From NCBI GenBank assembly GCA_019635285.1, contig JAHBZS010000022.1:1-64000 (forward strand): a stretch of 64,000 nucleotides of DNA, written 5' to 3'. The DNA comes from Rubrivivax sp. GTDB lineage: Bacteria; Pseudomonadota; Gammaproteobacteria; Burkholderiales; Burkholderiaceae_C. The notes under the pieces were generated by a model. The model worked only from the letters and a program-made list of their open reading frames with translations, was not told the origin of the DNA and ran no database searches. Below are positions 35,288-55,195 of this stretch, one piece after another (position 1 is the stretch's first letter; the number at the start of each line of letters is the position of its first letter). The position numbers and the translations under genes were made by a program.

Positions 35288-35334
35288 GCCCGTGCTCCGC
35301 TGGACCATCCCCTGGGGTCAACATCCGATGTCTC

Positions 35335-35736: not shown

Positions 35737-35998
35737 GGCGGGTTCCCTGGGGGGTCGACCGGCGCGGCGGCGGTGGCTCGTTGGCCACCGCCGCCGTTGG
35801 CGCCACTGTGGCGGACCAGTCGATCGACTCGTCGCCCTGCCACTGGAGCTTGCCGCGCCACTTGAGGATCTCGCGGTAGGCCGCCTGGCGGGCCAGCAAC
35901 TTCAAGCCGGCCTCGACCGCATCCTTCTTGGTCTTGAACGGACCGGCCTTCATGGCATCGGCCATCAAGCCGTCGTCGATATCGATGTTGGTGCGCAT
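35723..35998 (-). CDS. vapB: VapB-type antitoxin with extended C-terminus
   Basis: A 91-residue antitoxin. The first 60 or so residues are a standard VapB (MRTNIDIDDGLMADAMKAG, FKTKKDAVEAGLKLLARQ). The last 30 or so, rich in Pro and Arg, exceed the usual length and partly overlap vapC. An inverted repeat lies directly upstream, consistent with autoregulation by the VapBC complex. Confidence 0.87.
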   Translation of the reverse strand: MRTNIDIDDGLMADAMKAGPFKTKKDAVEAGLKLLARQAAYREILKWRGKLQWQGDESIDWSATVAPTAAVANEPPPPRRSTPQGTRRAGR

Positions 35999-36001
35999 GA
36001 T

Positions 36002-36036
36002 GTGTATGAAATCAGAATTCTATGCGCATCATACAC
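36002..36036. promoter_or_regulatory. Inverted repeat upstream of vapB (likely operator)
   Basis: GTGTATG (36002-36008) and CATACAC (36030-36036) are perfect 7-bp arms with a 21-bp AT-rich spacer. The repeat starts four bases before the vapB ATG, the usual place for a VapBC operator. Confidence 0.5.
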
Positions 36037-36202
36037 TTCGGCTGACCGCTTCAGCCCGCAGCCCCGCCGCCAGCTCAAGTACCGGGCGGGCGTGGCACAG
36101 GCCGGTGGTGGCGTCACGCGCCGAGGTCAGACGCGCGCTGGCCCGTCGCTCACGACAGCCCAGGTCGCGCAGCAGCCCCCAGGCCAAATCGGCGCCGGTC
36201 AT
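36029..36202 (-). CDS. Small ORF of 57 codons between liuB and vapB, unidentified
   Basis: An open frame from ATG 36202 beginning MTGADLAWGLLRDLG, with a GGAG ribosome-like site eight bases upstream. It starts 18 bases after the liuB stop. I do not recognise the product and see no membrane or signal segment. It occupies the place where the methylglutaconyl-CoA hydratase gene would normally lie, but does not look like a fragment of that enzyme. It may be a real small gene, a remnant, or chance. Confidence 0.3.
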   Translation of the reverse strand: MTGADLAWGLLRDLGCRERRASARLTSARDATTGLCHARPVLELAAGLRAEAVSRSV

Positions 36203-36220
36203 CGTCCGTGCTCCATGCGA

Positions 36221-37828: not shown

Positions 37829-37839
37829 GGTGGGCCCGC

Positions 37840-39018
37840 CTACATCGACTCGGAATACAGCTCGCGGCCGATGAGCATGCGGCGGATCTCGCTGGTGCCC
37901 GCGCCGATCTCGTACAGCTTGGCGTCGCGCCACAGCCGCCCGGCCGGGAATTCGTTGATGTAGCCGTTGCCGCCCAGCGCCTGGATCGCCTCGCCGGCCA
38001 TCCAGGTGGCCTTCTCCGCCGAGTACAGGATGGCGCCGGCCGCGTCCTTGCGCAGGGTGCGCGCATGGTCGCCGCGGTCGCAGGCCTGGCCCACCGCATA
38101 GACGTAGGCGCGGCTCGCCGACCAGGTGCTGTACATGTCGGCGATCTTGCCCTGCATCAGCTGGAACTCGCCGATGCTCTGGCCGAACTGCTTGCGCTCG
38201 TGCACATAGGGCAGCACCACGTCCATGCACGCGGCCATGATGCCCAGCGGCCCGCCGGACAGCACCGCGCGCTCGTAGTCCAGGCCGCTCATCAGCACCT
38301 TGACGCCCTTGCCCTCGCCGCCCAGCACGTTCTCCACCGGCACTTCGCAGTCGTCGAAGAACAGCGGCCAGGTGTTGCTGCCGCGCATGCCCAGCTTGTC
38401 GAGCTTGGTGCCGTAGCTCAGGCCCTTGAAGCCCTTTTCGACGATGAAAGCCGTCATGCCGCTGGGGCCGGCGTTGAGGTCGGTCTTGGCGTAGATCACC
38501 AAGGTGTCGGCGTCGCCGCCGTTGGTGATCCACATCTTGCTGCCGTTGAGCACATAACGGTCGCCCTTCAGGTCGGCACGCAGCTTCATGCTGACCACGT
38601 CGGAGCCGGCGTTGGGCTCGCTCATGGCCAGCGCGCCGACGTGCTCGCCGCTGACCAGCTTGGGCAGGTACTTCGCCTTCTGCGCCGCGCTGCCGTTGCG
38701 GTGGATCTGGTTGACGCACAGGTTGGAATGCGCGCCGTAGCTCAGGCCCACCGACGCCGAGGCGCGCGACACTTCTTCCATGGCGATGATGTGCGCCAGG
38801 TAGCCCATCTGGTTGCCGCCGTAAGCCTCGCTCACGGTCATGCCGTGCAGGCCCAGCGCGCCCAGCTTCTTCCACAGGTCGGGCGGGAACTGGTTGTCAC
38901 GGTCGATGTCCGCGGCCCGCGGCGCGATCTGCTCGGCCGCGAAGGCCTGCACGCTGTCGCGCAGCATGTCGAGGGTCTCGCCCAAGGCGAAGCTCAGGCC
39001 GGTGGTCAGGCTGCTCAT
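37840..39018 (-). CDS. liuA: Isovaleryl-CoA dehydrogenase
   Basis: A 392-residue acyl-CoA dehydrogenase. The expected isovaleryl-type catalytic Glu is E249 in [15 protein letters not shown], the position that distinguishes this branch from medium-chain enzymes. FAD/substrate segments [11 protein letters not shown] and MWITNGG are present, and the C-terminal [19 protein letters not shown] is intact. It carries out the second step of leucine breakdown. Confidence 0.94.
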
Positions 39019-39046
39019 TCAGGGGGCTCCAGGTTTCAGGCCCGTA

Positions 39047-40777
<1,731 letters not shown>

Positions 40778-42016: not shown

Positions 42017-42769
42017 ATGCGTGACTTCCAGGACTCCACGCTGTGGCGCATCAGCGCCTACGAGCGCATGCGCCTGCAGCGCGCTTCGAGCGCGTTTGCG
42101 CAGCTGGGCGAGAACACCATGCTGCCGACCACGCTGCTGGCCGATCTGCGCCAGCTGGAAGGGCGTCGCCAGGAAGGCGACGTGCTGGAGATCCTGGCCG
42201 CCTGCATGCGCCACAGGCAGGCCGCGCTGATCTGCCTGGAATACCAGGGGCTGGTCTGGCCCATCACGGTGTTCCCCAACGAGCTGGTCTACCACTCGCC
42301 GCGCGACATGGCGCTGGCCACGCGCGACGGGCTGGCCACGCTGAAGGTGCTGTCCTGCGACGCGCCGGGCATGCGCCCGCCGGGCCATTGGGTGCACGAG
42401 CGCGTGGGCCGCATCGAGCACTACCACCCGCTGAAGCCGCTGCTGTGGCAGATGGCGCTGCACGGCCCGCGCAGCGAGCGGCTGTCCGAAATCTCCGGGC
42501 AGGTGGCCTACCGCGTGACGCTGTCGCGCGAAGACCGCCTGCTCGCCCCCGGCGCCCTGGGCCCGGCCGCCGACCGCCTGCGCGCGAATTCGGCCGCGCT
42601 GCGCGACATCGCCCAATGGCCGGGCATGAGCACCGAGCGCGCCTGCCGGCTGCTGAATGCGCTGTACCTCAGCTCGGCGCTGATGGTCATGCGCAGCCAC
42701 CCCGCGGCCGCGCACGAAGGCGGCCTGCTCGGCCGGCTGCTGGGGCGCGACAAGCCGCCGCGGCGCTAG
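42017..42769 (+). CDS. Conserved-looking hypothetical protein, cytoplasmic
   Basis: A 250-residue protein I do not recognise. It has a strong ribosome site (GGGGGAAGG) before ATG 42017. There is no signal or membrane segment. The middle contains PITVFPNELVYHSPRDM and a helical C-terminal half with RACRLLNALYLSSALMVMRS, and a basic end. It lies 47 bases after the AraC gene and its last four bases overlap the converging enolase-like gene. Coding is well supported by codon pattern; function unknown. Confidence 0.75.
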   Translation: MRDFQDSTLWRISAYERMRLQRASSAFAQLGENTMLPTTLLADLRQLEGRRQEGDVLEILAACMRHRQAALICLEYQGLVWPITVFPNELVYHSPRDMALATRDGLATLKVLSCDAPGMRPPGHWVHERVGRIEHYHPLKPLLWQMALHGPRSERLSEISGQVAYRVTLSREDRLLAPGALGPAADRLRANSAALRDIAQWPGMSTERACRLLNALYLSSALMVMRSHPAAAHEGGLLGRLLGRDKPPRR

Positions 42770-44064
42770 CGGCTGTGCCCGAAAGCGGCCGCGCCGGCAA
42801 AGCGCGCGGCGGCACCCAGCCGCTGCTCGATGCGCAGCGCCTCGTTCCACTTGGCCATGCGCTCGCCGCGTGCAAAGGCGCCCACCTTCAGCTGGCCGAC
42901 GCCCCAGCCGATGGCCAGGTGCACGATGCTGGTGTCCTCGGTCTCGCCGGAGCGTGCCGACACGATGCCGGCATAACCCGCGGCCTGGGCGGCGCGCCAG
43001 GCGTCCAGCGTCTCGGTCAGCGTGCCGCGCTGGTTGGGCTTGAGCAGCACGCAGTTGGCCGCGCCCGCGGCGGCGGCTTCCTGGACACGCGCCGCCTGCG
43101 ACACCAGCAGGTCGTCGCCGACCACCTGCACGCGGCGCCCGGCCGCGCGCGTGAAGCGGGCAAAGCCGTCCAGGTCGTCCTCGGCCAACGGGTCCTCGAT
43201 CGACACGATCGGATAGCGCTCGATCCAGCGCAGCAGCAGCTCGATCAGGCCGTCGGCGTCCAGCTCGCGGCCCTCCAGCCCCAGGCGATAGCGGCCGTCG
43301 CGGCCGAATTCCGACGCCGCCACGTCCAGCGCGATGGCCACCTGCGCGCCGGGTGCGAAGCCGGCCTCCTCGATGGCCGCCACCAGCGCCTGCAGCGCCT
43401 GTTCGTTGGTGTCGAAGTCGGGCCACCAGCCGCCTTCGTCGGCCACGCCGTGCAGCGGGCCGCGCCGGCGCATGCCCAGCCCCGCGCAGCGATAGACCTC
43501 GGCCGTCCATTCCAGTGCCTGCGCAAAGCTGGTGGCACCCGGGCACACCACCATGAAGTCCTGGATGTCCACGCGCCGCCCGGCGTGCGCGCCGCCGCCG
43601 AAGATCTGGATCTGCGGCATCGGCAGCAGCGTGGCCGGGCCGCCGCCCAGGGTACTGCCCAGCCAGCGATAGAGCGGCAGCCCCGCCGACGCCGCCGCCG
43701 CATGGGCCGCGGCCAGCGACACCGCCAGCGTGGCGTTGGCGCCCAGGCGCGTCTTGTCCGGCGTGCCGTCCAGCGCGATCAGGCAGCGGTCCAGCGCGGC
43801 CTGGTCGGCGGCGTCGCAGCCGGCCAGCGCGGCGGCGATCTCGCCCTGCACGTGCGCCAGCGCGCGCTGCACGTCCAGCCCGCCGAAGGCGCTGCCGCCG
43901 TCGCGCAGTTCCAGCGCCTCGCGCGTGCCGGTGGAGGCGCCCGCCGGCACGATGGCCCGGCCGAGCGCGCCGTCGCCCAGCGTGACCTCGGCCTCCACCG
44001 TGGGCCGGCCGCGGCTGTCCCAGACGCGGCGCGCCAGCACCTGGCGGATGCGGGTGTCCTTCAT
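42766..44064 (-). CDS. Divergent enolase paralogue
   Basis: A 432-residue enolase-fold protein. Kept residues include S44 (AGASTG), H160 (GGGAHAG), E210 (ADEGG), metal ligands D247, E290 (SIEDP) and D317 (VGDDL), K342 (LLKPNQ) and K393 (GQLKVG). Two usually invariant positions are changed: the QEF Glu is D169 (IQDF) and the SHRSGETED His is A370 (SARSGETED). It is probably not the glycolytic enzyme. It overlaps the upstream kinase gene by four bases, so it likely acts on a phosphorylated product of that kinase. Confidence 0.87.
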   Translation of the reverse strand: MKDTRIRQVLARRVWDSRGRPTVEAEVTLGDGALGRAIVPAGASTGTREALELRDGGSAFGGLDVQRALAHVQGEIAAALAGCDAADQAALDRCLIALDGTPDKTRLGANATLAVSLAAAHAAAASAGLPLYRWLGSTLGGGPATLLPMPQIQIFGGGAHAGRRVDIQDFMVVCPGATSFAQALEWTAEVYRCAGLGMRRRGPLHGVADEGGWWPDFDTNEQALQALVAAIEEAGFAPGAQVAIALDVAASEFGRDGRYRLGLEGRELDADGLIELLLRWIERYPIVSIEDPLAEDDLDGFARFTRAAGRRVQVVGDDLLVSQAARVQEAAAAGAANCVLLKPNQRGTLTETLDAWRAAQAAGYAGIVSARSGETEDTSIVHLAIGWGVGQLKVGAFARGERMAKWNEALRIEQRLGAAARFAGAAAFGHSR

Positions 44065-45059
44065 GCGGCGATCTCCTGATGCCAGGCCTGCGCCACCGGC
44101 TGCAGACGCGGCAGCGGCGCGACCAGCAATGCACGGGCGGTGCGGCGCACGACATCGCGCGACGCGTCGTCCTGCAGATACTCCACCGGCGACTTGCCGT
44201 CGACGCGCGCCAGCAGCAGCCCGGGCAGCAGCCTCGCGGCGCGTTCCTCCACGGCCTCGGCCGGCTCCCAGCGCACGCCCGCCAGGTAGGCCGCGGCCAG
44301 CGCGTCGTAGCAGGCCAGGAAGCCCGCGCGGGCCGCCGGCGTCCACAGGCACTTCAGCAGCAGGTGGTTCAGGCAGAAGGCCAGGTCGAAGGCCGGGTCG
44401 CCCCAGACCGCGCATTCGGCGTCCAGGAACACCGGCGCCTGCCCGTCGACGAGGATGTTCTTGGGGCTGACATCGCCGTGCACCAGCGTCTTCGCCTGCG
44501 CCTGCGTCGTACGCACCAGCGCGCGCAGCGGCTCGGCCAGGTCCGGGTGCCGGGCCGCGGTGGCCAGCAGGTAGGGCTCGAGCCGGATGTCGAAGAAGAT
44601 CGCCTGGCTGTCGAACTGCGCCGCCAGCGCCGGCCGGGACGCCGCGTGCGCGTGGATGCAAGCCAGCGCCCGCCCCACGGCCGCCGCGGTGCGCGTGTCG
44701 GCCAGGCCGTCGCGCAGCTGCTGCTTCCACAGCGCGTGCGCCGGCAGGTAGTCCATCACCAGCACGCCCAGTTGCGGCTGCTGGCCGCGCACCCTTGGTG
44801 CGCAGCCCGGCAGCGCGGCGTCGGCCACGCGCATCCAGCGCGCCTCGTAGAGGTTGCGCGTGATCGGCGCCTGCCAGTCGGCCGCCACGCGCAGCTTGGG
44901 CAGCGCGCGCTTGACGCACAGCGTGCCCGCGGCAGTCTCGACGCGCCAGATGTCCGAGGACACGCCGCCGGTCAGCGGCTCGCCGCTCAGCGGCCCGGGC
45001 CCGGCCAGGCCCAGTTCACGCAGCGCCTGCGCGAAGACCTGCGGCACGGGCTGGTTCAC
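44061..45059 (-). CDS. APH/MtnK-like small-molecule phosphotransferase
   Basis: A 332-residue kinase of the aminoglycoside-phosphotransferase/5-methylthioribose-kinase fold. The catalytic loop is HGDVSPKNILV and the metal-binding motif is LDAECAVWGDPAFDLAF. The nucleotide-binding lobe has GGVSSDIWRVE and CVKRAL. I use GTG 45059, which has AAGGGA six bases upstream; an ATG at 45119 overlaps the preceding stop but would add 20 low-complexity residues. It overlaps the enolase paralogue, which points to a phosphorylated intermediate. Antibiotic resistance is unlikely in this setting. Confidence 0.85.
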   Translation of the reverse strand: MNQPVPQVFAQALRELGLAGPGPLSGEPLTGGVSSDIWRVETAAGTLCVKRALPKLRVAADWQAPITRNLYEARWMRVADAALPGCAPRVRGQQPQLGVLVMDYLPAHALWKQQLRDGLADTRTAAAVGRALACIHAHAASRPALAAQFDSQAIFFDIRLEPYLLATAARHPDLAEPLRALVRTTQAQAKTLVHGDVSPKNILVDGQAPVFLDAECAVWGDPAFDLAFCLNHLLLKCLWTPAARAGFLACYDALAAAYLAGVRWEPAEAVEERAARLLPGLLLARVDGKSPVEYLQDDASRDVVRRTARALLVAPLPRLQPVAQAWHQEIAA

Positions 45060-45115
45060 TGGCGTCCCTTCGGGCTGCGCCCCGTGGTGTTCGCTCTGAG
45101 GGCGGCCCGGCGGGC

Positions 45116-46081
45116 TCATGCGTAGCCCGATTCCACCAGCTTCACCAGTGCATGCAAGGCCTGGTTCACCGGCGTGGCCACGCCCAGCGCATGGCCGCGG
45201 CGCGCGACGAAGCCGTTGAGGTGGTCGATCTCGCTGGGCTTGCGCCGCGCCATGTCCTGCGCGGTGGACGACAGCTGCTGCGGCATGGCCAGCGCGATCT
45301 TCGCCACCGCCTCGCGCGAGGCCTGCGGCGGCAGCGTCACGCCGCTGGCCGCGGCCACCGCGATGACCTCCTGCACGACCCGTTCCTGCACCTCGACGAT
45401 CTGCGGCTGCGCCGCCAGCCGCGCATAAGGCATCTGCGCCAGCGCCGAGATCGCGTTGTAGGCGCAGTTGACCAGCAGCTTGGTCCACAGCTCGACCGCG
45501 ACATCGGGCACGATGCGCACCGGCACCTGCGCGCCGGCGAACAGGTCCACCAGCGCCTGCAGCGTCGGCCATTCGGGCACCGACGATTGGGTGCCGCCGG
45601 GCATCGCGCCGACGGCCAGGTCACCGCGGCCGAAATGCCGCACCACGCCGGGCCCGCCCAGCGCCACGGCCACATAGACCACGGTGGCGATGACGCGGCA
45701 CGCCAGATGCCGCGCCAGCGTCTCGGCGTTGTCGACGCCGTTCTGCAGGCTCATTACCCAGGTCGCCGCATCCACGTGGGGGGCCATCTGCCGCGCCGCC
45801 GCCTCGCTGTCGCCGGACTTGACGCAGCACAGCACCAGCTCGGCGCCGCGCAGTGCGGCGGGGTCGCTGCTCGCCTGCAGCACCACTGTGTGCGTGGTGC
45901 GGCCCATCTCCAGTTTCAGGCCGTCACGCTGGATCGCCTGCACATGCGCCGGCCGGCCGACCAAGGTCACCTCGTGGCCGGCACGCGCCAGCATGGCGCC
46001 GTAGAAGCTGCCCACCGCGCCGGCGCCCATCACGCCGATGCGCCGCAGGCGCGGCGCCGGCTCAGACGATGCGGCTGCCAT
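45116..46081 (-). CDS. Ketopantoate-reductase-like (PanE/ApbA) oxidoreductase
   Basis: A 321-residue NAD(P)H-dependent reductase of the 2-dehydropantoate 2-reductase family. The dinucleotide motif GAGAVG is at 19-24, and the catalytic region LWTKLLVNCAYNAISAL has K201, N205 and N209. The start overlaps the end of the ligase gene by 20 bases. In this operon it more likely reduces or oxidises a branched keto/hydroxy acid than serves pantothenate synthesis, but that is inference. Confidence 0.88.
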   Translation of the reverse strand: MAAASSEPAPRLRRIGVMGAGAVGSFYGAMLARAGHEVTLVGRPAHVQAIQRDGLKLEMGRTTHTVVLQASSDPAALRGAELVLCCVKSGDSEAAARQMAPHVDAATWVMSLQNGVDNAETLARHLACRVIATVVYVAVALGGPGVVRHFGRGDLAVGAMPGGTQSSVPEWPTLQALVDLFAGAQVPVRIVPDVAVELWTKLLVNCAYNAISALAQMPYARLAAQPQIVEVQERVVQEVIAVAAASGVTLPPQASREAVAKIALAMPQQLSSTAQDMARRKPSEIDHLNGFVARRGHALGVATPVNQALHALVKLVESGYA

Positions 46082-47603
46082 GGCCGGCCCAGTACTTGTC
46101 GCGCAGCAGCCGCTTGTAGAGCTTGCCGGTGGGGTGGCGCGGCAGTTCGGCCAGAAAGTCCACCGAACGCGGGCACTTGATCGGCGACAGCTGCTCGCGG
46201 CAGAAGGCGATGAGCTCCTGCTCCAGCGCCGGGCCGGCTTCGGCCATGTCGCGCGGCTGCACCACCGCCTTGACCTCTTCGCCGAACTCCTCGTTCGGCA
46301 CGCCGAAGACCGCCACGTCGACCACCTTGGGGTGCGTGACCAGCAGGTTCTCGGCTTCCTGCGGGTAGATGTTCACGCCGCCGGAGATGATCATGTTGGC
46401 CTTGCGGTCGGTGAGGTACAGGTAGCCCTCGGCGTCCATGTGGCCGATGTCGCCGAGCGTGCTCCAGCCCTTCGCGTTGCGGCTCTGCGCGGTCTTCTCC
46501 GGGTCGTTGTGGTACTCGAAGACCTTGCCGTCGGAGAAGTACACGCCGCCGGTCTGGCCCGGCGGCAGCTCCGTGCCGTCGTCGTCGCAGATGTGCAGCA
46601 CACCCACCACCGCGCGGCCCACCGTGCCCTGGTGCGCCAGCCACTGCGGCGAATCGACCAGGGTCATGCCCATGCCCTCGGTGCCGGCGTAGTACTCCCA
46701 GATGATCGGGCCCCACCAATCGATCATCTGCTGCTTCACCGGCACCGGGCACGGCGCCGCCGCATGGATGGCGATGCGCAGACTGGACAGGTCGTGCGCC
46801 AGGCGCTGCGCGTCGGGCAGCTTGAGCATGCGCACGAACATCGTCGGCACCACCTGGGTGTGCGTAATGCGGTGCTGCGGCACCAGGCGCAGGAACTCGG
46901 CGGCGTCGAAGTGTTCCATGACCACCACCGTGCCGCCCAGGCGCATCACCGACATCGCAAAGCGCAGCGGCGCCGCGTGGTACAGCGGCCCGGGCGACAG
47001 GTAGACGGTATCCGGACCCATGCCCCACGGCCCCATGCACACCTTGAGCAGCGAATTGACGAAGGCGATGTCGGTCGACTCCGGCGGCACGAACACGCCC
47101 TTGGGCCGGCCGGTGGTGCCCGACGAATAGAGCATGTCGCCGCCGGCAGAGGGGTCGGCCACCGGCGTCGTCGGCTGGCCGGCCACCGCCTGCTCGTAGG
47201 CGGTGTAGCCGTCGATCGTGCCGTCGAGCATCAGCCGCGTCTGCAGCGCCGGCGTGTGGCCCAGCAGTTCGCCGGCCTGGCGCGCCAGCGCCATCGAGCT
47301 GATGAACACCTTGGCGCCGCAGTCGTTGACGATGTAGGCGGCCTCGCCGGCGGTGAGCCGGCTGCTGATGGCGGTGTAGACGATGCCGGCGCGCTGCGCC
47401 GCCCAGCAGATCTCGAAATAGCGCGGGTGGTTCTCCAGCATCAGCGCGATGCGGTCGCCGGCGTTCACGCCGACGCTGCGCAAGTAGTGCGCCAGCCGGT
47501 TGGAGCCTTCGTCGAGCTGCCGGTAGCTGACGGCCTGGCCGCTGCCCGCCATGCGGTACGCCGGCTTGTCCGGCGACGTCTGGGCATGGATCGAAGGATG
47601 CAT
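46062..47603 (-). CDS. Acyl-CoA ligase of the P450 cluster
   Basis: A 513-residue AMP-forming fatty acyl-CoA or aryl-CoA ligase. It has [11 protein letters not shown] at about 151-161, YYAGTEGMG, the [12 protein letters not shown] motif and the C-terminal PTGKLYKR Lys. GGGAGACC precedes ATG 47603. It is first in the minus-strand operon ligase-panE-kinase-enolase and divergent from ferredoxin-P450 across 149 bases, so both may share the TetR-type element there. Confidence 0.9.
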
Positions 47604-47681
47604 CGTCGTGGTCTCCCGTGCTGTGCAGGCAGTGTAGGCCGGCCGATGATGCGGTGCCGCAGCATGGCGCCCGCCCGGCAA

Positions 47682-47704
47682 AACTTGAACACCGATTCGA
47701 ATTT
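47682..47704. promoter_or_regulatory. TetR-type operator candidate, copy 1 (ferredoxin-P450 / ligase)
   Basis: AACTTGAA-CACC-GATTCG-A-ATTT, 49-71 bases before the ferredoxin start. The same pattern with identical spacing is found upstream of tetR (50266-50288), 18 of 23 positions matching. It overlaps the -35 and spacer of the predicted promoter. Confidence 0.65.
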
Positions 47705-47713
47705 TTCTATGAT
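47685..47713 (+). promoter_or_regulatory. Sigma70 promoter of ferredoxin-P450
   Basis: TTGAAC (47685-47690), a 17-bp spacer, then TATGAT (47708-47713), 39 bases before the ferredoxin ATG. This is a near-consensus housekeeping promoter, and the overlapping repeat suggests it is repressed. Confidence 0.65.
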
Positions 47714-47752
47714 GCGCCGTCCGCGCCGGCCCAACCCTCACCCGGAACCACC

Positions 47753-48073
47753 ATGCCCACAGTCATCTTCTTCGAACACAACGGCACGCGCCACGAGGTC
47801 GACGCCACCAACGGCGTGTCGCTGATGCGCGCCGCCGTGGACCACAACGTGCCCGGCATCGACGCCGACTGCGGCGGCGCCTGCGCCTGCGCCACCTGCC
47901 ACGTGTACGTCGACCCGGCCTGGCTGGCGAAGACCGGTGCCCGCACCGAGATGGAAGAAAGCATGCTCAGCTTCGCCGCCGCCACGCAGGAGAACTCCCG
48001 CCTGTCCTGCCAGATCGAGATGAGCGACGCGCTGGACGGCATCGTGCTGCGCTTGCCCGACGGTCAACACTGA
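47753..48073 (+). CDS. [2Fe-2S] ferredoxin (putidaredoxin/adrenodoxin type)
   Basis: A 106-residue electron carrier. Cluster ligands C40, C46, C49 and C86 fit the vertebrate-type C-x5-C-x2-C spacing, in [18 protein letters not shown] and SRLSCQIEM. It is 13 bases before the P450 and should pass electrons to it, with the reductase encoded at 53972-55195 as donor. Confidence 0.94.
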
Positions 48074-48086
48074 ACGGAGATCGCCC

Positions 48087-49355
48087 ATGAACGCACCCGC
48101 CCACGACGCCGAACTACAGGCCCTGGCCCGCGAGGACGCCTTCTCGCTGCCGATCGAGCAGATCGACGTCAGCAAGCCGCGGCTGTTCCAGGAAGACACC
48201 GTCGGCCACTACTTCGCGCGGCTGCGCCGCGACGACCCGGTGCACTTCAACGACAACCAGTTCTACGGACGCTTCTGGTCGGTGACCAAGTGGAAGGACA
48301 TCATGGCCGTGGACACCAACCACGCCGTCTATTCGTCCGACTACACCCAGGGCGGCATCGCGCTGTGGAACGCGCCCGACGTGAAGCAGCGGCTGCACAT
48401 GTTCATCGCCATGGACCCGCCCCGGCACGACGAGCAGCGCAAGGCGGTGAGCCCGATCGTCGCGCCGCACAACCTGGTGTCGATGGAGGCGACGATCCGC
48501 GCGCGCACGGCCAAGGTGCTGGACGAGCTGCCGCGCAACGAAGAATTCAACTGGGTGCAGCGCGTGTCGATCGAGCTGACCACGCAGATGCTGGCCACGC
48601 TCTTCGACTTCCCCTTCGAGGACCGCCAGTTGCTGACCTGGTGGTCCGACGTGTCGACCTCGGTGCCTGAAGTCGACCACATCGTCGAGTCGCAGGAAGC
48701 CCGCATGGTCGAGCTGGGCAAGATGCACGCCTACTTCACCCGGCTGTGGAACGAGCGCGTCAACGCGCCGCCGAAGAACGACCTGGTGTCGATGCTGGCG
48801 CACAACCCGGCCACGCGCAACATGGGCCCGCTGGAATACATGGGCAACCTGGTGCTGCTGATCGTCGGCGGCAACGACACCACGCGCAACTCGATGACCG
48901 GCGGCGTGCTGGCAATGAACCGCTACCCCAGCGAATGGGCCAAGCTGCGCGCCAACCCGTCGCTGGTGGACAGCACGGTGTCGGAGATCATCCGTTGGCA
49001 GACGCCGCTGCCGATGATGCGCCGCACCGCGCTGCAGGATGCCGAGCTGGGCGGCAAGAAGATCCTCAAGGGCGACAAGGTCGTCATGTGGTACCTGTCG
49101 GGCAACCGCGACGAAGAGATGATCGACGACGCCGACGCCTTCATCATCGACCGGCCGCGGCCGCGCCAGCACCTGAGCTTCGGCTTCGGCATCCACCGCT
49201 GCGTCGGCAACCGCCTGGCCGAGCTGCAGCTGAAGATCCTGTGGGAAGAGATCCTGAAGCGCTTCCCGGCCATCGAAGTCGTCGGCCCGCCGAAGCGGCT
49301 GATGTCGAACTTCGTGCGCGGCATCAGCGACCTGCCGGTGCGCATCCCCGGCTAG
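48087..49355 (+). CDS. Cytochrome P450, CYP153-like
   Basis: A 422-residue soluble P450. The I-helix motif GGNDTTRNS is at 261-269, ExxR is E300-R303, and the haem loop FGFGIHRCVG has thiolate ligand C372. Segments SIELTTQMLATLFDFP and LVLLIVGGNDTTRNSMTGG, and HLSFGFGIHRC, are those I associate with CYP153, which hydroxylates terminal carbons of alkanes and terpenes. Ribosome site CGGAGA precedes the ATG. The exact substrate cannot be read from sequence, and a related bacterial P450 family is the alternative. Confidence 0.92.
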   Translation: MNAPAHDAELQALAREDAFSLPIEQIDVSKPRLFQEDTVGHYFARLRRDDPVHFNDNQFYGRFWSVTKWKDIMAVDTNHAVYSSDYTQGGIALWNAPDVKQRLHMFIAMDPPRHDEQRKAVSPIVAPHNLVSMEATIRARTAKVLDELPRNEEFNWVQRVSIELTTQMLATLFDFPFEDRQLLTWWSDVSTSVPEVDHIVESQEARMVELGKMHAYFTRLWNERVNAPPKNDLVSMLAHNPATRNMGPLEYMGNLVLLIVGGNDTTRNSMTGGVLAMNRYPSEWAKLRANPSLVDSTVSEIIRWQTPLPMMRRTALQDAELGGKKILKGDKVVMWYLSGNRDEEMIDDADAFIIDRPRPRQHLSFGFGIHRCVGNRLAELQLKILWEEILKRFPAIEVVGPPKRLMSNFVRGISDLPVRIPG

Positions 49356-49462
49356 GAGCCTGGGCGGCAGAAGCCGCGCCGCCTCGTAGCCCGCGGCTTG
49401 ATGTACCGCTCCCCCGAGCCCCCGCCGAGAGGGAGCTCCCACTCGTTGGACCGCACCCTCCA

Positions 49463-49483
49463 GCCTCCCTCCGCGAGGGCGGC
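49463..49483 (+). terminator. Hairpin downstream of P450
   Basis: GCC-T-CCCTC-CGC-GAGGG-C-GGC forms an 8-pair stem with one mismatch, 108 bases after the P450 stop. No T run follows, so it may be a weak terminator or a transcript end-protecting structure. A second palindrome, GGGAGCTCCC, is at 49431-49440. Confidence 0.3.
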
Positions 49484-49515
49484 CCCAGTCAGTCTGACGA
49501 GTGCTTGTGCGCAGT

Positions 49516-49617
49516 TCAGCCCACGCTGAGCACCGCCATGCGGCGCAGGTTCAGCGCCATGCACACGAGCTTCCATTCGGCTCGCAACCGGTGCAGGCCG
49601 CCCAGGCTCCTGGGGCG
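49516..49617 (-). pseudogene. Transposase C-terminal remnant (IS1182/IS5-like)
   Basis: Directly after the tetR stop the same strand stays open for 33 codons to a TGA at 49516. It reads about SLGGLHRLRAEWKLVCM then ALNLRRMAVLSVG. This matches the end of DDE transposases of the IS1182/IS5 type, which close with a helix like EWxLVCLALNLRRM. No start and no other part of the element is present, so it is a truncated relic. Confidence 0.65.
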
Positions 49618-50256
49618 TCAGTCGAGGCGCACGGTCGCCAGGAACACCCGGCTCAGTTCGGTCTCCATGCGCTTGTCGTGCAGGCCGATCGGCCCCGGGT
49701 TGTGCAGCACCGCGTTGACCAGCGTGCCGAACACCAGCTGCAGCGCGATGCCCACGCGCAGCCGGCGTTGCGCCGCCGGCACCTGCTGCAGGTGCGCGGC
49801 CAGCGCCAGATAGACGGCGTCGCCCAGCTGCCGGCCGTAGGCGTGCAGTTGCGGCCAGTACAGGCGGGAGCGCGCCGGATCGGAATGCGCGGCACGGAAG
49901 ATGCCGCGATGCTCGCGATGGATGTGCACCAGATGGCGCACGATCTGCGCCACCTTGCGCGCGTTACCGGCGCGCGTGAAGCGCGCGCTGACCAGCAGCG
50001 CCTGCGTGTCCTGCAGCGCCTGCTCGCCGGTGACGCGCAGCAGCTCGGCGAACCAGGCGTCCTTGTCCTCGAAGCGCGAGTAGAACGAGCCCACCGACAT
50101 GCCGGCGTCGCGCGTCAGCTGCGCCACCGACAGCGTGCTGAGATCGTGCGTGTCGAGCAGCCGGCGCCCGGCCTGCAGCAGGGCCTGGTGCTTCAGCAGG
50201 CTGCGCGACTGCTTGGCCGCGCGCACGCCCTTCGATGTCTTGCCCGGTGCCTGCAT
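49618..50256 (-). CDS. TetR-family regulator of the P450 cluster
   Basis: A 212-residue TetR/AcrR protein with a basic leader and an HTH near residues 45-65 (LSVAQLTRDAGMSVGSFYSRFEDKD). A helical ligand domain follows. The 23-bp element shared with the ferredoxin-P450 promoter begins ten bases before its start, so it probably represses itself and the cluster. The stop codon abuts a transposase remnant, but the protein looks full length. Confidence 0.9.
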   Translation of the reverse strand: MQAPGKTSKGVRAAKQSRSLLKHQALLQAGRRLLDTHDLSTLSVAQLTRDAGMSVGSFYSRFEDKDAWFAELLRVTGEQALQDTQALLVSARFTRAGNARKVAQIVRHLVHIHREHRGIFRAAHSDPARSRLYWPQLHAYGRQLGDAVYLALAAHLQQVPAAQRRLRVGIALQLVFGTLVNAVLHNPGPIGLHDKRMETELSRVFLATVRLD

Positions 50257-50265
50257 GCTGCGCGT

Positions 50266-50288
50266 AACTTGAATGGAGATTCGGATTT
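50266..50288. promoter_or_regulatory. TetR-type operator candidate, copy 2 (tetR)
   Basis: AACTTGAA-TGGA-GATTCG-G-ATTT, spacing identical to the copy at 47682-47704. It lies 10-32 bases upstream of the tetR start, where a bound repressor would block its own expression. Confidence 0.65.
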
Positions 50289-50342
50289 GCGCCGCATGCT
50301 AGTGGCGGCCCAGCGGGCCGTCAAATCGACGCACCAGGGTGC

Positions 50343-51347
50343 TCAGGGCCGGTAGTCCGCCGCCAAAAAGCGCTGCAGCGCGGCGTTGACCTCGGCCGGC
50401 CGCTCCTGCTGGATCCAGTGGCCGGCGCCGTCGATCAGCAGCTTGGCGCGCAGCTGCGGCACCTGCGCGTCCATCTGCTCCAGGTGCTTGCGGCCCATCT
50501 TCGAGTTGATGACACCGTCGTGCGTGCCGGCGATGAACAGCGCCGGCGGCAGGATCTTGGCGCCCTGGAACGGCGCCGTCAGCGCCCAGTTGCGGTCGAG
50601 GTTGCGGTACCAGTTGAAGCCGCCGCGAAAGCCGCTGCGCCTAAAACCCGCGGCATAGGCCTCGATGTCGGCCGGCGTCAGCCATGCCGGCAGCTCCACG
50701 GGGTCGTCGCAGCCGTCGAGGAAGCCGCCGCCGGGGGCGACCATCAGGCCGAGGGCGCGGCCGGCCGGTGCGTCGCCCGAGCCGAAGACCAGCACGCGGC
50801 GCATCGCCGCCGGGATGTCGCGCTCGAACTCGGCCTCGGGCACGCCCTCGCGGTTGAAGTAGAACCAGTAGAAGTTGTCGCGGCCGTCGGCGCGCAGCAG
50901 GGCCAGCGGCGGCGCCGCGGGATGGCGCGCGCGGAAGGGCACGCTCAGCGCCGCCACGGCCTGGAACAGGTCCGGGCGCATCAGCGCCGCGCTCCAGGCC
51001 ACCATCGCGCCCCAGTCGTGGCCGACGACGGCGGCGCGCGTCTCGCCCAGCGCGGCCACCAGCGCCACCAGGTCGCCCACCAGGTCGGTGATGGCGTAGG
51101 CGTCGATGTCCCTGGGCGCCGAGCTGCCGCCGTAGCCGCGCATGTCCGGCGCCACCACGTGGTAGCCGGCCGCCGCCAGCGCCGGCATCTGGTGGCGCCA
51201 CGAATAGCCCAGCTCCGGCCAGCCGTGCACCAGCAGCACCAGCGGCCCCTGCCCCATCTCGGCGATGTGCAAGGTGATGCCATTCGCGGCAACGTCGCGC
51301 CGCGTGATGCCATCGGCGACGTCGCGCCGCGTGATTCCCTCATCCAT
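50343..51347 (-). CDS. Alpha/beta hydrolase, epoxide-hydrolase-like
   Basis: A 334-residue hydrolase. It has the oxyanion segment HGWPE (41-45), nucleophile D111 in GHDWGA, a lid with FRGGFNWYRNLDRNW providing the likely Tyr, and the His in GHWIQQE. An Asp nucleophile points to epoxide hydrolase or haloalkane dehalogenase rather than an esterase. The N-terminus has a tandem repeat (GITRRDVA twice). It is last in the operon headed by ferredoxin reductase. Confidence 0.88.
   Translation of the reverse strand: MDEGITRRDVADGITRRDVAANGITLHIAEMGQGPLVLLVHGWPELGYSWRHQMPALAAAGYHVVAPDMRGYGGSSAPRDIDAYAITDLVGDLVALVAALGETRAAVVGHDWGAMVAWSAALMRPDLFQAVAALSVPFRARHPAAPPLALLRADGRDNFYWFYFNREGVPEAEFERDIPAAMRRVLVFGSGDAPAGRALGLMVAPGGGFLDGCDDPVELPAWLTPADIEAYAAGFRRSGFRGGFNWYRNLDRNWALTAPFQGAKILPPALFIAGTHDGVINSKMGRKHLEQMDAQVPQLRAKLLIDGAGHWIQQERPAEVNAALQRFLAADYRP
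51288..51341 (-). repeat. 27-bp tandem duplication in the hydrolase N-terminus
   Basis: Two adjacent 27-base units (51315-51341 and 51288-51314) match at 24 positions and encode EGITRRDVA and DGITRRDVA. A third partial copy (NGIT) follows. It looks like a recent slippage duplication that keeps frame. Confidence 0.8.
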
Positions 51348-51360
51348 GCGTCCTCTCCGC

Positions 51361-52590
51361 TCAGGCCACGCGCTCGACGCGATAGCCCTCCTGTTGCAAG
51401 TCCCGCAGCATCTGGTCCACGTGCGCCGCGCCGCGCGTCTGCACCACCACCTCGATCTGCGCGCGCTCCACCGACAGCGAACTGAAGGCGCGCTGGTGCT
51501 GCACCTCGTCGATGTTGGCGCCCAGCCGACCCAGCGCCGACGCCACCTCGGCCAAGGTGCCCGGCACGTCGCGCACGTCGAAGCGCAGCCGCACCAGACG
51601 GCCCGACTTGACCATGCCGCGGTGGATGATCTCGGCCAGCATCAGCGGCTCGATGTTGCCGCCGCTCAGCACCAGCCCGACGTGGCGGCCGGCGAAGCGC
51701 TCGCGCTCGGCCAGCAGCGCGGCCAGGCCGGCAGCGCCGGCGCCTTCGACCACGGTCTTCTCGATCTCCAGCAGCATCAGGATGGCCTGCTCGATGGCGT
51801 CCTCGTCGACCAGCAGCACCTGCTGCACGTGCTGGCGCAGCAGCGGCACCGTCAGCCCGCCCGGGGACTTGACCGCAATGCCGTCGGCCACCGTCGCCTG
51901 GCCGCATGCGCGTGCGCCGTCGTGCAGCGCATTCCACACCGGCGGAAAGCGCTCGGCCTGCACGCCGTACAGCTGCAGATCGGGGCGCAGCGCATGCGCC
52001 GCCACGCCGATGCCGGACAGCAGGCCGCCGCCGCCGATGGGCACGAGCAAGGTGTCCAGGGCGGGCACCTGCGCCAGCATCTCCAACGCGATGCTGCCCT
52101 GCCCGGCCATCACCGCCACGTCGTCGTAGGGGTGCACCAGCGTGAGCCCGCGCTCGGCGGCCAGCGCCAGGCCGTGCAGCCGCGCCTCGTCGAAGGTGTC
52201 GCCGACCAGCAGCACCTCGGCGCCGAAGCGGCGCGTGTTGTCCACCTTCACCGCCGGCGCGAAGCGCGGCATGACGATGGTGGCCGGCACGCCCATGCGC
52301 TGCGCGTGGTAGGCCACGCCTTGCGCATGGTTGCCGGCCGATACCGCCAGTACGCCGCGCGCCGCCTCGTCGGCCGTCAGCTGGGCCATGCGGTTGAAGG
52401 CGCCGCGTTCCTTGAAGGACGCGGTGAACTGGTGGTTCTCGAACTTCAGGTAGACCTCGCAGCCGCACAGCTGCGACAGCGTGCGCGAGTGCAGGCACGG
52501 CGTGGTCACCACCTGGCCGGCCATGCGCGCCGCGGCCGCGCGGATGGCGTCCAGACTCACGGCGTCGGTGGGCGCGGCCGCCGGCTGCAT
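51361..52590 (-). CDS. Threonine ammonia-lyase-like PLP enzyme with ACT domain
   Basis: A 409-residue fold-type II PLP enzyme. The Schiff-base Lys is K60 in ASFKERGA. The phosphate-binding Gly loop is in VPIGGGGLLSG, and LSGGNIEP comes near residue 320. A C-terminal ACT-like regulatory domain occupies about 335-405. By sequence it should deaminate Thr or Ser to 2-oxo acids. Its presence between a DUF6285 gene and an epoxide hydrolase suggests it may act on another hydroxy amino acid here, but this is not shown. Confidence 0.9.
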   Translation of the reverse strand: MQPAAAPTDAVSLDAIRAAAARMAGQVVTTPCLHSRTLSQLCGCEVYLKFENHQFTASFKERGAFNRMAQLTADEAARGVLAVSAGNHAQGVAYHAQRMGVPATIVMPRFAPAVKVDNTRRFGAEVLLVGDTFDEARLHGLALAAERGLTLVHPYDDVAVMAGQGSIALEMLAQVPALDTLLVPIGGGGLLSGIGVAAHALRPDLQLYGVQAERFPPVWNALHDGARACGQATVADGIAVKSPGGLTVPLLRQHVQQVLLVDEDAIEQAILMLLEIEKTVVEGAGAAGLAALLAERERFAGRHVGLVLSGGNIEPLMLAEIIHRGMVKSGRLVRLRFDVRDVPGTLAEVASALGRLGANIDEVQHQRAFSSLSVERAQIEVVVQTRGAAHVDQMLRDLQQEGYRVERVA

Positions 52591-52962
52591 TCAGGCCTCC
52601 TTCGCGCGCCGGTAGCTTGCGTAGCTCGGCTGGTCCACCGCCAGCTTGTCCAGCGTGCTCTGCCACAGGTGCGCCGGCAGCCCCGGGGTCTGCAGGTTGA
52701 TGCGGCCGTCGGCGATGCGCTCGCACAGCAGCGCGTTCAGCTCGGCCAGGCTGCCGTCGGCCTGCAGCAGCGTGCGCAGGCGCTGCCGTTCCTGGGCGTC
52801 GGCCGCGGGCGCCAGCTGCAGCTGCCGGCGCACGATGTCCACCATGTTCGCGGCCACGCGCGCGTGGTACGCGGCATGGCCCGGCAGCTGGGGAATGGCC
52901 TGCTCGCGCAGGAACAGCGCCACCGCGGCGAGCAGGTCCTCGGTGTCGGGCCGCTGGTGCAT
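52591..52962 (-). CDS. DUF6285 protein, partner of the adjacent kinase
   Basis: A 123-residue helical protein beginning MHQRPDTEDLLAAVALFLRE and containing HARVAANMVDIVRRQL, the pattern of DUF6285. Such proteins are regularly encoded next to APH-fold acyl-CoA kinases. I recall LvaB, the small partner of the 4-hydroxyacyl-CoA kinase LvaA of Pseudomonas putida, as being of this type. It touches the kinase stop (one-base overlap) and the next gene's start, so the three are translationally linked. Confidence 0.82.
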   Translation of the reverse strand: MHQRPDTEDLLAAVALFLREQAIPQLPGHAAYHARVAANMVDIVRRQLQLAPAADAQERQRLRTLLQADGSLAELNALLCERIADGRINLQTPGLPAHLWQSTLDKLAVDQPSYASYRRAKEA

Positions 52963-53984
52963 CAGGCGGCCTGGCGCGGGCGTGGCACCAGCAGCTCCAG
53001 CAGGTCGATCTCGGCCTCGGAGGCGCGCCGGCCGATGGCCGCGCGCTCGGCATTGCGCTCGGCGCCGCTGAGGTACGAATGCGCCATCGACTGGCAGATC
53101 ACGCCCCACTTCAAGCTGCCCAGCACCTCCCAGTAGTGCACGCGTTCGGCATCGACCTGGCCGCCGGCTTCGGCATAACCGGCGAACAGCTCCTCGCGCG
53201 TGCCGAAGCCGCCCACCGGCAGCTCCAGCCGGCCGTAGCGCCAGCTGGTCACGCACAGCCAGCCCAGGTCCTCCATCGGGTCGCCCAGATGCGCCAGCTC
53301 CCAGTCCAGCACCGCGCGCAGGCCGTCTTCGCCGACGATCAGGTTGCCATTGCGGAAGTCGCCGTGCACCAGGCGCAGGTCGGCGGTCTGGGCGGGCGCG
53401 TGCGTCTTCAGCCAGCGCAAGGCCAGCTCGAACACCGGCTGCCGCAGGCCGTGGCTGCGGTACTGCGCCTCGTAGTGCGCCAGCTCCTCGGCCGGCGGCG
53501 CGCGGCGCAGCGGCGGCAAGGTGGCGGGCGCGATGCGGTGGATGCGCGCCAGGGCCTGGCCGCATTGCCGCGCCAGCCGCCCGCGCGCGTTGGCCAAGGC
53601 GGGCTCGGTGACGATGCGGCGGCCGAGCGTCTCGCCGGCGATGCGCTGCATGAAGAAACCCTCGCCCATCGCCTCCGCCGGCTGCAGCACCCAGGGCACG
53701 GCCGGCGCGGGCACGCCGGCCGCGGCCACCAGGCCCAGCAGCACGGCCTGCGTGGCCAGCGTGGCGTTGCCCTCGGCACGCTGTGCCGAGCCGGCCGGCG
53801 CGCGCCGCAGGATCAGCGGCAGCGCGCTGCCATCGTCCAGCCGCAGGTCGAAGGACCAGGTCTCCTGGCTGGCGCCACCCGACAGGCGCCGCAGGTCGGC
53901 GATGTCGCGCCCGCCGGCGTGCAGCTGCGGGGCCAGCGCGCCCAGCTGCTGCTGCAGCTGCTGCTGCGCACTCAGCTCAGCCAT
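52962..53984 (-). CDS. APH-fold phosphotransferase, ACAD10/LvaA-like
   Basis: A 340-residue kinase. The nucleotide lobe has LSGGASQETWSFD, the catalytic loop is HGDFRNGNLIV (207-217) and the metal motif is LDWELAHLGDPMEDLGW. This is the branch linked to acyl-CoA metabolism (LvaA, the kinase part of ACAD10/11), which phosphorylates hydroxyacyl-CoA. It is clearly different from the kinase at 44061-45059. The start overlaps the reductase end by 13 bases. Confidence 0.88.
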   Translation of the reverse strand: MAELSAQQQLQQQLGALAPQLHAGGRDIADLRRLSGGASQETWSFDLRLDDGSALPLILRRAPAGSAQRAEGNATLATQAVLLGLVAAAGVPAPAVPWVLQPAEAMGEGFFMQRIAGETLGRRIVTEPALANARGRLARQCGQALARIHRIAPATLPPLRRAPPAEELAHYEAQYRSHGLRQPVFELALRWLKTHAPAQTADLRLVHGDFRNGNLIVGEDGLRAVLDWELAHLGDPMEDLGWLCVTSWRYGRLELPVGGFGTREELFAGYAEAGGQVDAERVHYWEVLGSLKWGVICQSMAHSYLSGAERNAERAAIGRRASEAEIDLLELLVPRPRQAA

Positions 53985-55195
53985 GTCTTGAATTCGGAGG
54001 CCGGGTCGGCGGCCATCGCCTTGGGCACGCTGGCGCCGCGCTCGAGCAGCTTCTTCGCGGTGACGAAGGCCGCGGCGTCGCTCATCGCGTCGACCGCCTG
54101 CAACTGCTCGCCGCGGTAGTACCAGACCGACTGGCTGCGCTCGGTCTTGCCCGGCCGCACGACCACGTCGTCGTAGCCGCGGTGCAGGCCGGCGATCTGC
54201 AGCTTGCAGTCGTACTGGTCCGACCAGAACCACGGCAGCGCGGCATAGGGCTTGTCCTGGCCGGCGACGGTGTGGGCCGCGACGGCGGCCTGGTCGTTGG
54301 CGTTCTGCACCGATTCGAGCCGGGTGTGCTGGCCGCGGTAGTCGAAGCTGCAGCAGTCGCCGGCCGCCAGGATCAGCGGGTCGGAGGTGCGGCAGTGCGC
54401 ATCGACGACGATGCCGTTGTCCACGCGCAGGCCGCAGGCCTGTGCCAGTTCGACGTTGGGGGTCACGCCGATGCCCACCAGCACCACGTCGGCATCGATG
54501 CGGCTGCCGTCTTCCAGTTCGGCGCCGCAGACCCGGTCGCCATCGGCCAGCAGGCGGCGCAGGGCCACGCCTTCGCGCACGTCGACGCCATGGCTGCGGT
54601 GCAGCTGGCGGAACCAGTCCGACGTGGCCGGCGCGGCCACGCGCTGCAGGATGCGCGGCGCGGCTTCGAGCAGCGTCACCTGCAGGCCCCGGGTGGCCGC
54701 TACCGCCGCGGCCTCCAGGCCGATGTAGCCGCCGCCCACCACCAGCAGCCGCTGGCCCGCAACGAGGTGCGGCGCCAGCGCGTCGGCATGGGCCAGGCTG
54801 CGCATCGGCAGCACGTGGCGCAGCTCGCCGCCGATGTCCGCCGGCAGACGGCGCGGCGTGGCGCCGGTCAGCAGCACCAGCTGGCTGTAGTCGAGCTGCG
54901 TGCCGTCGGACAGCCGCACGCGGCGCGCCTCGCGGTCGATGGCCTCGGCGCGCACGTTCAGCCGCAGGTCGATCTGCTGCTCTTCGTACCAGGCGGCGGC
55001 GCGGATCAGGATCTGCTCGACCGGCAGGCCATCGGCCAGGTATTTCTTCGACAGCGGCGGCCGGTGGTAGGGCAGCACGGGCTCGTCGCTGACGAGCACC
55101 ACCGGGCCGGCGTAGCCGGCACGGCGCACGCTGTTGGCAAAGGCCGCGGCGGCATGGCCGCCGCCGATCAGCACCACCGGTGCAGTGCTTGGCAT
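53972..55195 (-). CDS. FAD-dependent ferredoxin reductase (putidaredoxin reductase type)
   Basis: A 407-residue NAD(P)H:ferredoxin reductase. The FAD site is VVLIGGGHAAAAFA with HRPPLSKKYL, and the NAD site is LLVVGGGYIGLEAAAVAA. The second FAD segment is ILAAGDCCSF. The C-terminal domain is of the rubredoxin/putidaredoxin reductase kind. GGAGA precedes ATG 55195. It heads the minus-strand operon and is the obvious electron source for the ferredoxin-P450 pair 6 kb away. Confidence 0.92.
   Translation of the reverse strand: MPSTAPVVLIGGGHAAAAFANSVRRAGYAGPVVLVSDEPVLPYHRPPLSKKYLADGLPVEQILIRAAAWYEEQQIDLRLNVRAEAIDREARRVRLSDGTQLDYSQLVLLTGATPRRLPADIGGELRHVLPMRSLAHADALAPHLVAGQRLLVVGGGYIGLEAAAVAATRGLQVTLLEAAPRILQRVAAPATSDWFRQLHRSHGVDVREGVALRRLLADGDRVCGAELEDGSRIDADVVLVGIGVTPNVELAQACGLRVDNGIVVDAHCRTSDPLILAAGDCCSFDYRGQHTRLESVQNANDQAAVAAHTVAGQDKPYAALPWFWSDQYDCKLQIAGLHRGYDDVVVRPGKTERSQSVWYYRGEQLQAVDAMSDAAAFVTAKKLLERGASVPKAMAADPASEFKTWLS

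Follow-up and report, generated by a model that had tools for sequence, protein, structure and literature searches.

Organization of the gene cluster

We analysed a 64,000-nucleotide stretch of Rubrivivax sp. DNA (contig JAHBZS010000022.1; hereafter the window), in which an initial annotation had grouped twelve genes around a CYP153-like P450 and had read them as a possible single oxidative pathway. All twelve genes are present where that annotation had placed them and are free of internal stops (Table 1). Four of them, encoding an acyl-CoA ligase (Lig), a PanE-like reductase (PanE), a kinase (APH1) and an enolase paralogue (ENO), form a minus-strand run with spacings of -20, -4 and -4. The minus-strand run encoding a ferredoxin reductase (FdR), a second kinase (APH2), a DUF6285 protein, a threonine ammonia-lyase (TDH) and an epoxide-hydrolase-like protein (EH) has spacings of -13, -1, 0 and 13, bearing out the tight overlaps that had been described, and the genes for a ferredoxin (Fdx) and the P450 lie between the two runs on the plus strand. 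As detailed below, the part of the cluster worth following is not a unified P450 pathway but the association of a widespread kinase, APH1, with a diverged enolase, ENO.

The APH1 and ENO genes form a recurrent pair

APH1 loci were collected by a pattern scan of genome contigs, which reaches close relatives only (46 loci), and from 30 stretches of the same order, all 76 being found through the kinase. ENO adjoins APH1 in 75 of the 76; both genes are on the same strand in 74, the kinase comes first in 70 and the median gap is -4 bp. Among the scan loci the count is 45 of 46, the exception (L029) being a contig that ends just past APH1. At L046, the other locus outside the 74, both APH1 and ENO were detected by tblastn; a 715-residue frame at this locus, considered as a possible kinase-enolase fusion, is without the enolase N-terminal part and was set aside, being taken for a run-together or shifted frame.

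The pair also occurs on plasmids. Of 32 plasmid matches to APH1, 16 records were opened (13 of these annotated), and by tblastn all 16 have a homologue of ENO no more than 6 kb from APH1. The two genes adjoin in 11 records (ENO lying in two frames in one and being a divergent gene of 35% identity in another), and Rhodococcus and two archaea, Halomarina and Haladaptatus, are among the plasmid carriers of the pair. An Enterobacter chuandaensis plasmid (L105:6193-8918) bears a still further derived pair, in which an APH1-like kinase (38.5%) stands beside an enolase homologue (35%) annotated as a "hypothetical protein", in a run that also holds an aminotransferase, U32 and M14 peptidases and an MFS gene.

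The association was also approached from the enolase side, in a survey of 250 genomes of the order (match thresholds of E <= 1e-100 for the P450, 1e-30 for APH1 and 1e-40 for APH2). Among the matches listed, 33 genomes have an ENO match of at least 59% identity, and 32 of these 33 have APH1; in the remaining genome, G100, the enolase match begins at base 11 of its contig. Six APH1 genomes are without a listed paralogue at that level.

ENO belongs to a diverged enolase clade

ENO is an enolase by fold: it has both enolase domains, scores 482 bits on TIGR01060 (cut-off 300), and its model superimposes on true enolases with a template modelling (TM) score of about 0.95. A canonical enolase, to which ENO is 48% identical, is encoded elsewhere in the same genome, and the initial description of ENO as a paralogue is thus accurate. 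The best TIGR01060 match per genome, among the matches listed, scores 629-726 bits, compared with 482 for ENO; because the latter value clears the 300-bit cut-off, ENO is annotated as an ordinary enolase.

Filtering homologues by length kept 61 enolase and 65 kinase matches. We aligned 59 of the 61 enolases (no stop, 380-480 aa), the window protein and 11 plasmid proteins, 71 paralogues altogether, with 31 canonical controls (the 30 top-scoring enolases of a phylum sample, not a random draw, and the genome's own); residue numbers are those that we take to apply to yeast enolase. H159, Q167, E211, D246, E295, D320, K345, R374, S375 and K396 are kept in 71 of 71 paralogues and the loop serine S39 in 70, with one gap; the base, acid, metal and phosphate ligands of canonical enolase are retained. 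ENO departs from the canonical pattern, however, at Glu168, His373 and the Gly before DEGG, which are replaced by Asp, Ala and Ala, respectively, in every one of the 71. In addition, T397 is Val (68) or Ile (3) and N151 is Gly (65) or Ser (6), while all 31 canonical enolases have E, H, G, T and N at the five positions. The same signature is found in 29 of 29 order loci checked and in the second enolases of genomes G291 and G352 (both on the contig of APH1), whereas the second enolases of G286 and G316, genomes without a listed APH1, have the canonical residues. At a further position, Ala in canonical enolases, the paralogues have Trp (65), Ser (4) or Ala (2), which may mark ENO subgroups.

The hydroxyl of 2-phosphoglycerate is contacted by the counterparts of E168 and E211 in Staphylococcus aureus enolase (PMC4667285), and PMC10619443 names a lysine as the base and the E211 equivalent as the acid. 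By alignment, ENO keeps base and acid while the leaving-group side is altered; the other exchanges fall within conserved motifs of the active site. A quick tree search, in which several branches are long, placed the paralogues on one side of a branch with an approximate likelihood ratio (SH-aLRT) support of 100, opposite the 31 canonical enolases. For 70 of the 71 paralogues, distances within ENO track those within APH1 (r = 0.907, no control gene being run), a pattern that common ancestry by itself could also produce. On this sequence evidence, the ENO paralogues are a diverged enolase clade that is named phosphopyruvate hydratase in databases. Compared with canonical enolase (EC 4.2.1.11), ENO shares the fold, metal ligands, base and acid and phosphate binders, and differs in E168D, H373A, the Gly-to-Ala exchange, the changed T397 and N151, a clade of its own and a kinase nearly always alongside. 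Relatives of ENO in the plasmid records also carry the phosphopyruvate hydratase label; Asp at 168 together with Ala at 373 would separate them.

APH1 is a probable small-molecule kinase outside the glycerate kinase families

APH1 matches PF01636 with 77.3 bits (cut-off 23.2), no other Pfam model passing its cut-off, and contains the HGD.SPKN catalytic loop of APH-fold kinases; H214, D216, N221 and D233 are invariant in 17 sequences. The predicted model has a mean confidence (pLDDT) of 91.3 but falls below 50 for residues 1-18; these first 18 residues are doubtful, and an alternative GTG start lies at 45059. The nearest solved folds are 5-methylthioribose kinases (15-18% identity), which makes a role in phosphorylating metabolites more likely for APH1 than one in drug resistance. 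A 5-methylthioribose kinase (MtnK) is also its top NCBIfam match, but at 60.3 bits on TIGR01767 APH1 remains far under the cut-off of 275, and the gene families named in the scanned or annotated neighbourhoods include none of methionine salvage. APH2 matches PF01636 as well, and the nearest relatives of the two kinases differ; the initial claim of two unrelated APH-fold kinases thus holds within one Pfam family.

Three unrelated classes of glycerate kinase are described in the part of PMC2063504 available to us. Classes I (GlxK/GarK), II (GckA/MOFRL) and III (plant type) would catalyse the same kind of step as APH1, if glycerate is the APH1 substrate, but APH1 belongs to none of the three families and has neither a PF02595 nor a PF13660 domain. 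We also considered that APH1 replaces a missing glycerate kinase, in which case a complementary distribution would be expected. Instead, GckA is present in 35 of 38 APH1 genomes compared with 101 of 212 others, and the idea was dropped; GlxK is found in 0 of 38 compared with 61 of 212. The window genome itself has GckA, as a separate gene, along with the canonical enolase.

Genes neighbouring the pair

Genes around the pair were in part predicted with our own codon-usage caller, which missed or mis-started some of them. In 28 of the 76 loci, the pair has a reductase gene on its own strand at a distance of at most 350 bp; the product is a D-2-hydroxyacid dehydrogenase in 19 of these loci and PanE-like in nine. 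Three representatives of the dehydrogenases resemble glyoxylate reductase or phosphoglycerate dehydrogenase, scoring under both cut-offs. In three Rhizobium plasmid records, a phosphoenolpyruvate (PEP) carboxylase gene heads the run, followed by the dehydrogenase and APH1; the one PEP carboxylase tested scored 1114 bits (cut-off 815), and in G352 a 78% match lies in the APH1 gene run. In Paracoccus and Roseibium, genes of the fumarylacetoacetate hydrolase (FAH) and short-chain dehydrogenase/reductase (SDR) types follow 3' of ENO, and both types also stand beside the pair in G315; with 352 bits (cut-off 500), the Paracoccus FAH protein resembles 2,4-didehydro-3-deoxy-L-rhamnonate hydrolase. Pentonate-dehydratase-like, SDR and AraD1 genes precede the pair in Inquilinus, and RraA, UxuA or galactarate-dehydratase-like genes accompany it at other loci. 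Taken together, the PEP carboxylase, reductase and sugar-acid contexts would suit a C3 hydroxy acid that enters metabolism as PEP.

The SDR and FAH gene types after the pair in Paracoccus, Roseibium and G315 are those of Route III of sugar-acid breakdown, which, in the available part of PMC6336799, employs an SDR dehydrogenase and a FAH-type hydrolase. Route III differs in ending in pyruvate and glycolate or lactate, and that part of the source describes neither a kinase nor a glycolytic-type enolase step. An SDR and a FAH hydrolase were not among the window proteins scanned. In three genomes of one family (loci L084, L097 and L083), a further gene precedes APH1, encoding about 210 aa in two of them, with a PdxH-like PNPOx domain shown for L083 only; cluster c28, also beside APH1, gave no Pfam match.

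A possible route into the PEP pool

Based on these results, we suggest, with a probability of about 0.6, that PanE, APH1 and ENO constitute a three-step route by which a small 2-oxo/2-hydroxy acid would reach the PEP pool. First, the 2-hydroxy acid would be made by the reductase, which is PanE-like in the window and a D-2-hydroxyacid dehydrogenase elsewhere; alternatively, in sugar-acid operons, a FAH-type enzyme would deliver it directly. APH1 would then phosphorylate the 2-hydroxyl, and in ENO the retained lysine would remove the C2 proton and the retained glutamate would expel the 3-substituent, yielding PEP or a close analogue. We infer the order of these reactions, the action of APH1 on the 2-hydroxyl, PEP as the product and the nature of the substrate alike. 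The phosphorylation and elimination proposed in the initial annotation are thus likely for APH1 and ENO, while the twelve-gene oxidative pathway into which it had placed them is unsupported.

To our knowledge, ordinary enolase does not use the L form of its substrate. The window genome already has a D-glycerate 2-kinase (GckA) and an ordinary enolase, which another pair acting on D-glycerate would only duplicate; L-glycerate is therefore our preferred substrate, albeit as a tentative choice to which we give somewhat less than even odds. Described glycerate kinases prefer D-glycerate and use L-glycerate at 13-34% of the D rate where measured, as stated in the available part of PMC2063504. By analogy with Route III (PMC6336799, as far as available), L-glycerate would arise from L-sugar acids through SDR and FAH cleavage. 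The pair may then represent an undescribed route from L-glycerate (or another non-D-2-phosphoglycerate route) to PEP, combining a fourth, APH-fold glycerate kinase with a substrate-changed clade of true enolases, a proposal that we likewise regard as possible rather than probable. Neither a kinase-enolase pair nor an L-glycerate route was found described in the open-licence literature searched (the best-ranked part only for broad queries), in line with the initial statement that no described alkane or terpene pathway is known with this gene set. We know of no earlier true-enolase clade that has changed its substrate while keeping enolase's own catalytic set.

Several observations weigh against this interpretation. 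Neither reductase lies next to the pair in 48 of the 76 loci. The Sphingobium context includes an extradiol-dioxygenase-like gene (290.9 bits, cut-off 321.4), and acyl-CoA ligases and a crotonase occur at four loci of metagenome-assembled genomes; with neighbourhoods so varied (ring-cleavage-like genes, acyl-CoA ligases, an EamA transporter), the substrate could differ by lineage. In five of the 16 plasmid records, ENO lies 2.8-6 kb from APH1, on the opposite strand in four. In the Enterobacter enolase homologue (35% identity to ENO, encoded by a divergent gene), E211 is replaced by Lys and H373 by Gly; not even one catalytic set is thus common to the wider family. Moreover, the usual product of D-2-hydroxyacid dehydrogenases and of PanE is the R (D) acid, and D-glycerate therefore fits better than L-glycerate on this point. 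Finally, the association with GckA may simply follow from lineage or lifestyle, and some activity on L-glycerate is reported for GckA-type enzymes (PMC2063504).

Alternatively, APH1 might be a D-glycerate 2-kinase and ENO a dedicated, ordinary 2-phosphoglycerate enolase, together forming a plain glycerate-to-PEP route. Such a route would agree with the core catalytic residues kept in ENO, with PEP carboxylase in the gene run and with one neighbouring reductase representative that resembles glyoxylate/hydroxypyruvate reductase (211 bits, cut-off 455), but it would duplicate the GckA and canonical enolase found in the window genome and GckA in most other APH1 genomes. The replacement of three canonical-invariant residues in every aligned paralogue is, moreover, hard to explain with an unchanged substrate, and we consider this explanation unlikely. 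Less unlikely, though still doubtful, is action of the pair on a different 2-hydroxy acid, which could be threonate, erythronate or tartrate (four-carbon sugar acids) or a lactate substituted at C3, for example 3-sulfolactate; the group expelled by ENO would then be hydroxide or sulfite. The position of E168 is next to the leaving group, and a different C3 substituent would fit its exchange; in L041, the genes beside the pair include one that matches PdxA above the cut-off and one with a partial match to D-threonate kinase, and D-threonate-kinase and PdxA clusters occur in six and four loci, respectively. PEP carboxylase beside APH1 in three plasmids, however, points to PEP itself, and the 13 plasmid stretches with annotation name neither a sulfonate nor a sulfite gene, although that of Roseibium includes a sulfatase-like gene.

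It remains to consider the single oxidative pathway of the initial annotation, in which the P450, the ligase, both kinases, ENO, DUF6285, the threonine-dehydratase-like enzyme and the hydrolase act together. The genes are closely packed, and Lig-PanE-APH1-ENO and Fdx-P450-TetR are conserved in L003, which alone among the 46 scan loci has the set TetR/P450/Fdx/Lig/PanE/APH1/ENO, including a close ligase. In the order survey, APH1 was found in 38 genomes, APH2 in nine and the P450 in six; five of the six P450 genomes also have APH1 and three APH2 (both counts including the window's genome). In the four other genomes that have both P450 and APH1, however, the two genes lie on different contigs, and no APH1 or ENO was found around the P450 in any of the eight places fetched, of nine outside the window (12-18 kb around each). 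L186, from a complete genome in the family to which the window's genome belongs, has PanE-APH1-ENO without a P450 or ligase match. The EH-TDH-DUF6285-APH2-FdR run was not found in L003 (21 kb), and none of the other partners of the cluster was found in the 30 order stretches, save ligases of 25-35% identity in five. The parts thus stand apart in relatives, an outcome that the initial annotation had itself named as refuting its reading, and the cluster looks like a juxtaposition; the threonine-dehydratase-like enzyme is an ordinary threonine ammonia-lyase that clears the corresponding NCBIfam cut-off. We therefore regard one common pathway as highly improbable.

Rather than one pathway, the twelve genes are probably several neighbouring units: (i) PanE-APH1-ENO; (ii) the CYP153-family P450 with its ferredoxin; and (iii) APH2-DUF6285 beside ordinary genes such as that for threonine ammonia-lyase. 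We count the P450, APH2-DUF6285, the threonine ammonia-lyase and the hydrolase as neighbours of the PanE-APH1-ENO unit rather than as established members of it. So strict a division is opposed by the ligase, which is operonic with PanE-APH1-ENO both in the window and in L003; perhaps there is a local link of the ligase, and even of the P450, to this unit.

Enolase is regarded as among the most function-conserved enzymes, and annotation models label good matches as glycolytic. If the proposed PanE-APH1-ENO route is correct, ENO would clearly exemplify a glycolytic enzyme that has changed its function, with an altered leaving-group site and a kinase partner. It would also add a kinase fold to 2-hydroxy-acid metabolism, correct database entries and reveal a route that spans Proteobacteria, Actinomycetes and haloarchaea, hidden as "phosphopyruvate hydratase" and "aminoglycoside phosphotransferase".

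The P450 and APH2-DUF6285 units and other features of the window

Table 1. Features of the twelve-gene cluster, with positions in the window
Feature	Position	Strand	Basis
ENO, enolase paralogue, 432 aa	42766-44064	-	Pfam Enolase_N/C; TIGR01060 482 bits
ENO codon A370 (canonical His, yeast H373)	42955-42957	-	alignment
ENO codon A208 (canonical Gly of GDEGG)	43441-43443	-	alignment
ENO codon D169 (Glu in 31/31 canonical enolases; yeast E168)	43558-43560	-	alignment
APH1, MTR-kinase-like small-molecule kinase, 352 aa	44061-45119	-	PF01636
PanE-like (ketopantoate-reductase family) reductase	45116-46081	-	PF02558/PF08546; TIGR00745 265 bits, cut-off 141
Lig, acyl-CoA (AMP) ligase, FadD4-like, under that model's cut-off	46062-47603	-	
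Fdx, 2Fe-2S ferredoxin	47753-48073	+	PF00111
CYP153-family P450	48087-49355	+	PDB best match CYP153A7, 587 bits
TetR regulator beside P450 (also in L003)	49618-50256	-	
EH, alpha/beta hydrolase, epoxide-hydrolase-like	50343-51347	-	
TDH, threonine ammonia-lyase with ACT domain	51361-52590	-	NF005600, 607 bits, cut-off 496
DUF6285	52591-52962	-	PF19802
APH2, second kinase	52962-53984	-	PF01636
FdR, ferredoxin reductase	53972-55195	-	PF07992/PF14759; nearest NCBIfam AndAa 347 bits, under cut-off 650

The P450 is a CYP153 enzyme by its best structure match, as initially annotated. CYP153 alkane hydroxylase units resemble that of the window in combining a P450 with a ferredoxin, joined by a reductase in some relatives; nothing new was seen in the window P450 itself, and its placement beside PanE-APH1-ENO was seen in two genomes only. 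A second CYP153-like P450 in the same genome (G000:C53:20480-21700, locus L141) is 69% identical to that of the window, and the window's other cluster genes are without a match in the 17.6 kb fetched around it.

APH2-DUF6285 (window 52591-53984) recurs as a two-gene unit. Four of the ten APH2 places outside the window were fetched, and DUF6285 adjoins APH2 in all four; no P450 was found in these stretches, and an acyl-CoA dehydrogenase match lies nearby in two. The nearest relative of APH2 is a protein deposited as a putative acyl-CoA dehydrogenase. ACAD10/11 combine a kinase and a dehydrogenase acting on hydroxyacyl-CoA, and a similar combination offers a lead for APH2. DUF6285 is not mentioned in the open-licence literature searched.

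An Rfam scan of the window returned two tRNAs only. A 250-aa protein without a Pfam match is encoded at 42017-42769, convergent with ENO, and is 83% identical in L003. Upstream genes at 32400-40777 resemble a leucine (liu) degradation operon, with an AMP ligase and an acyl-CoA dehydrogenase assigned by Pfam and the rest guessed from sizes.

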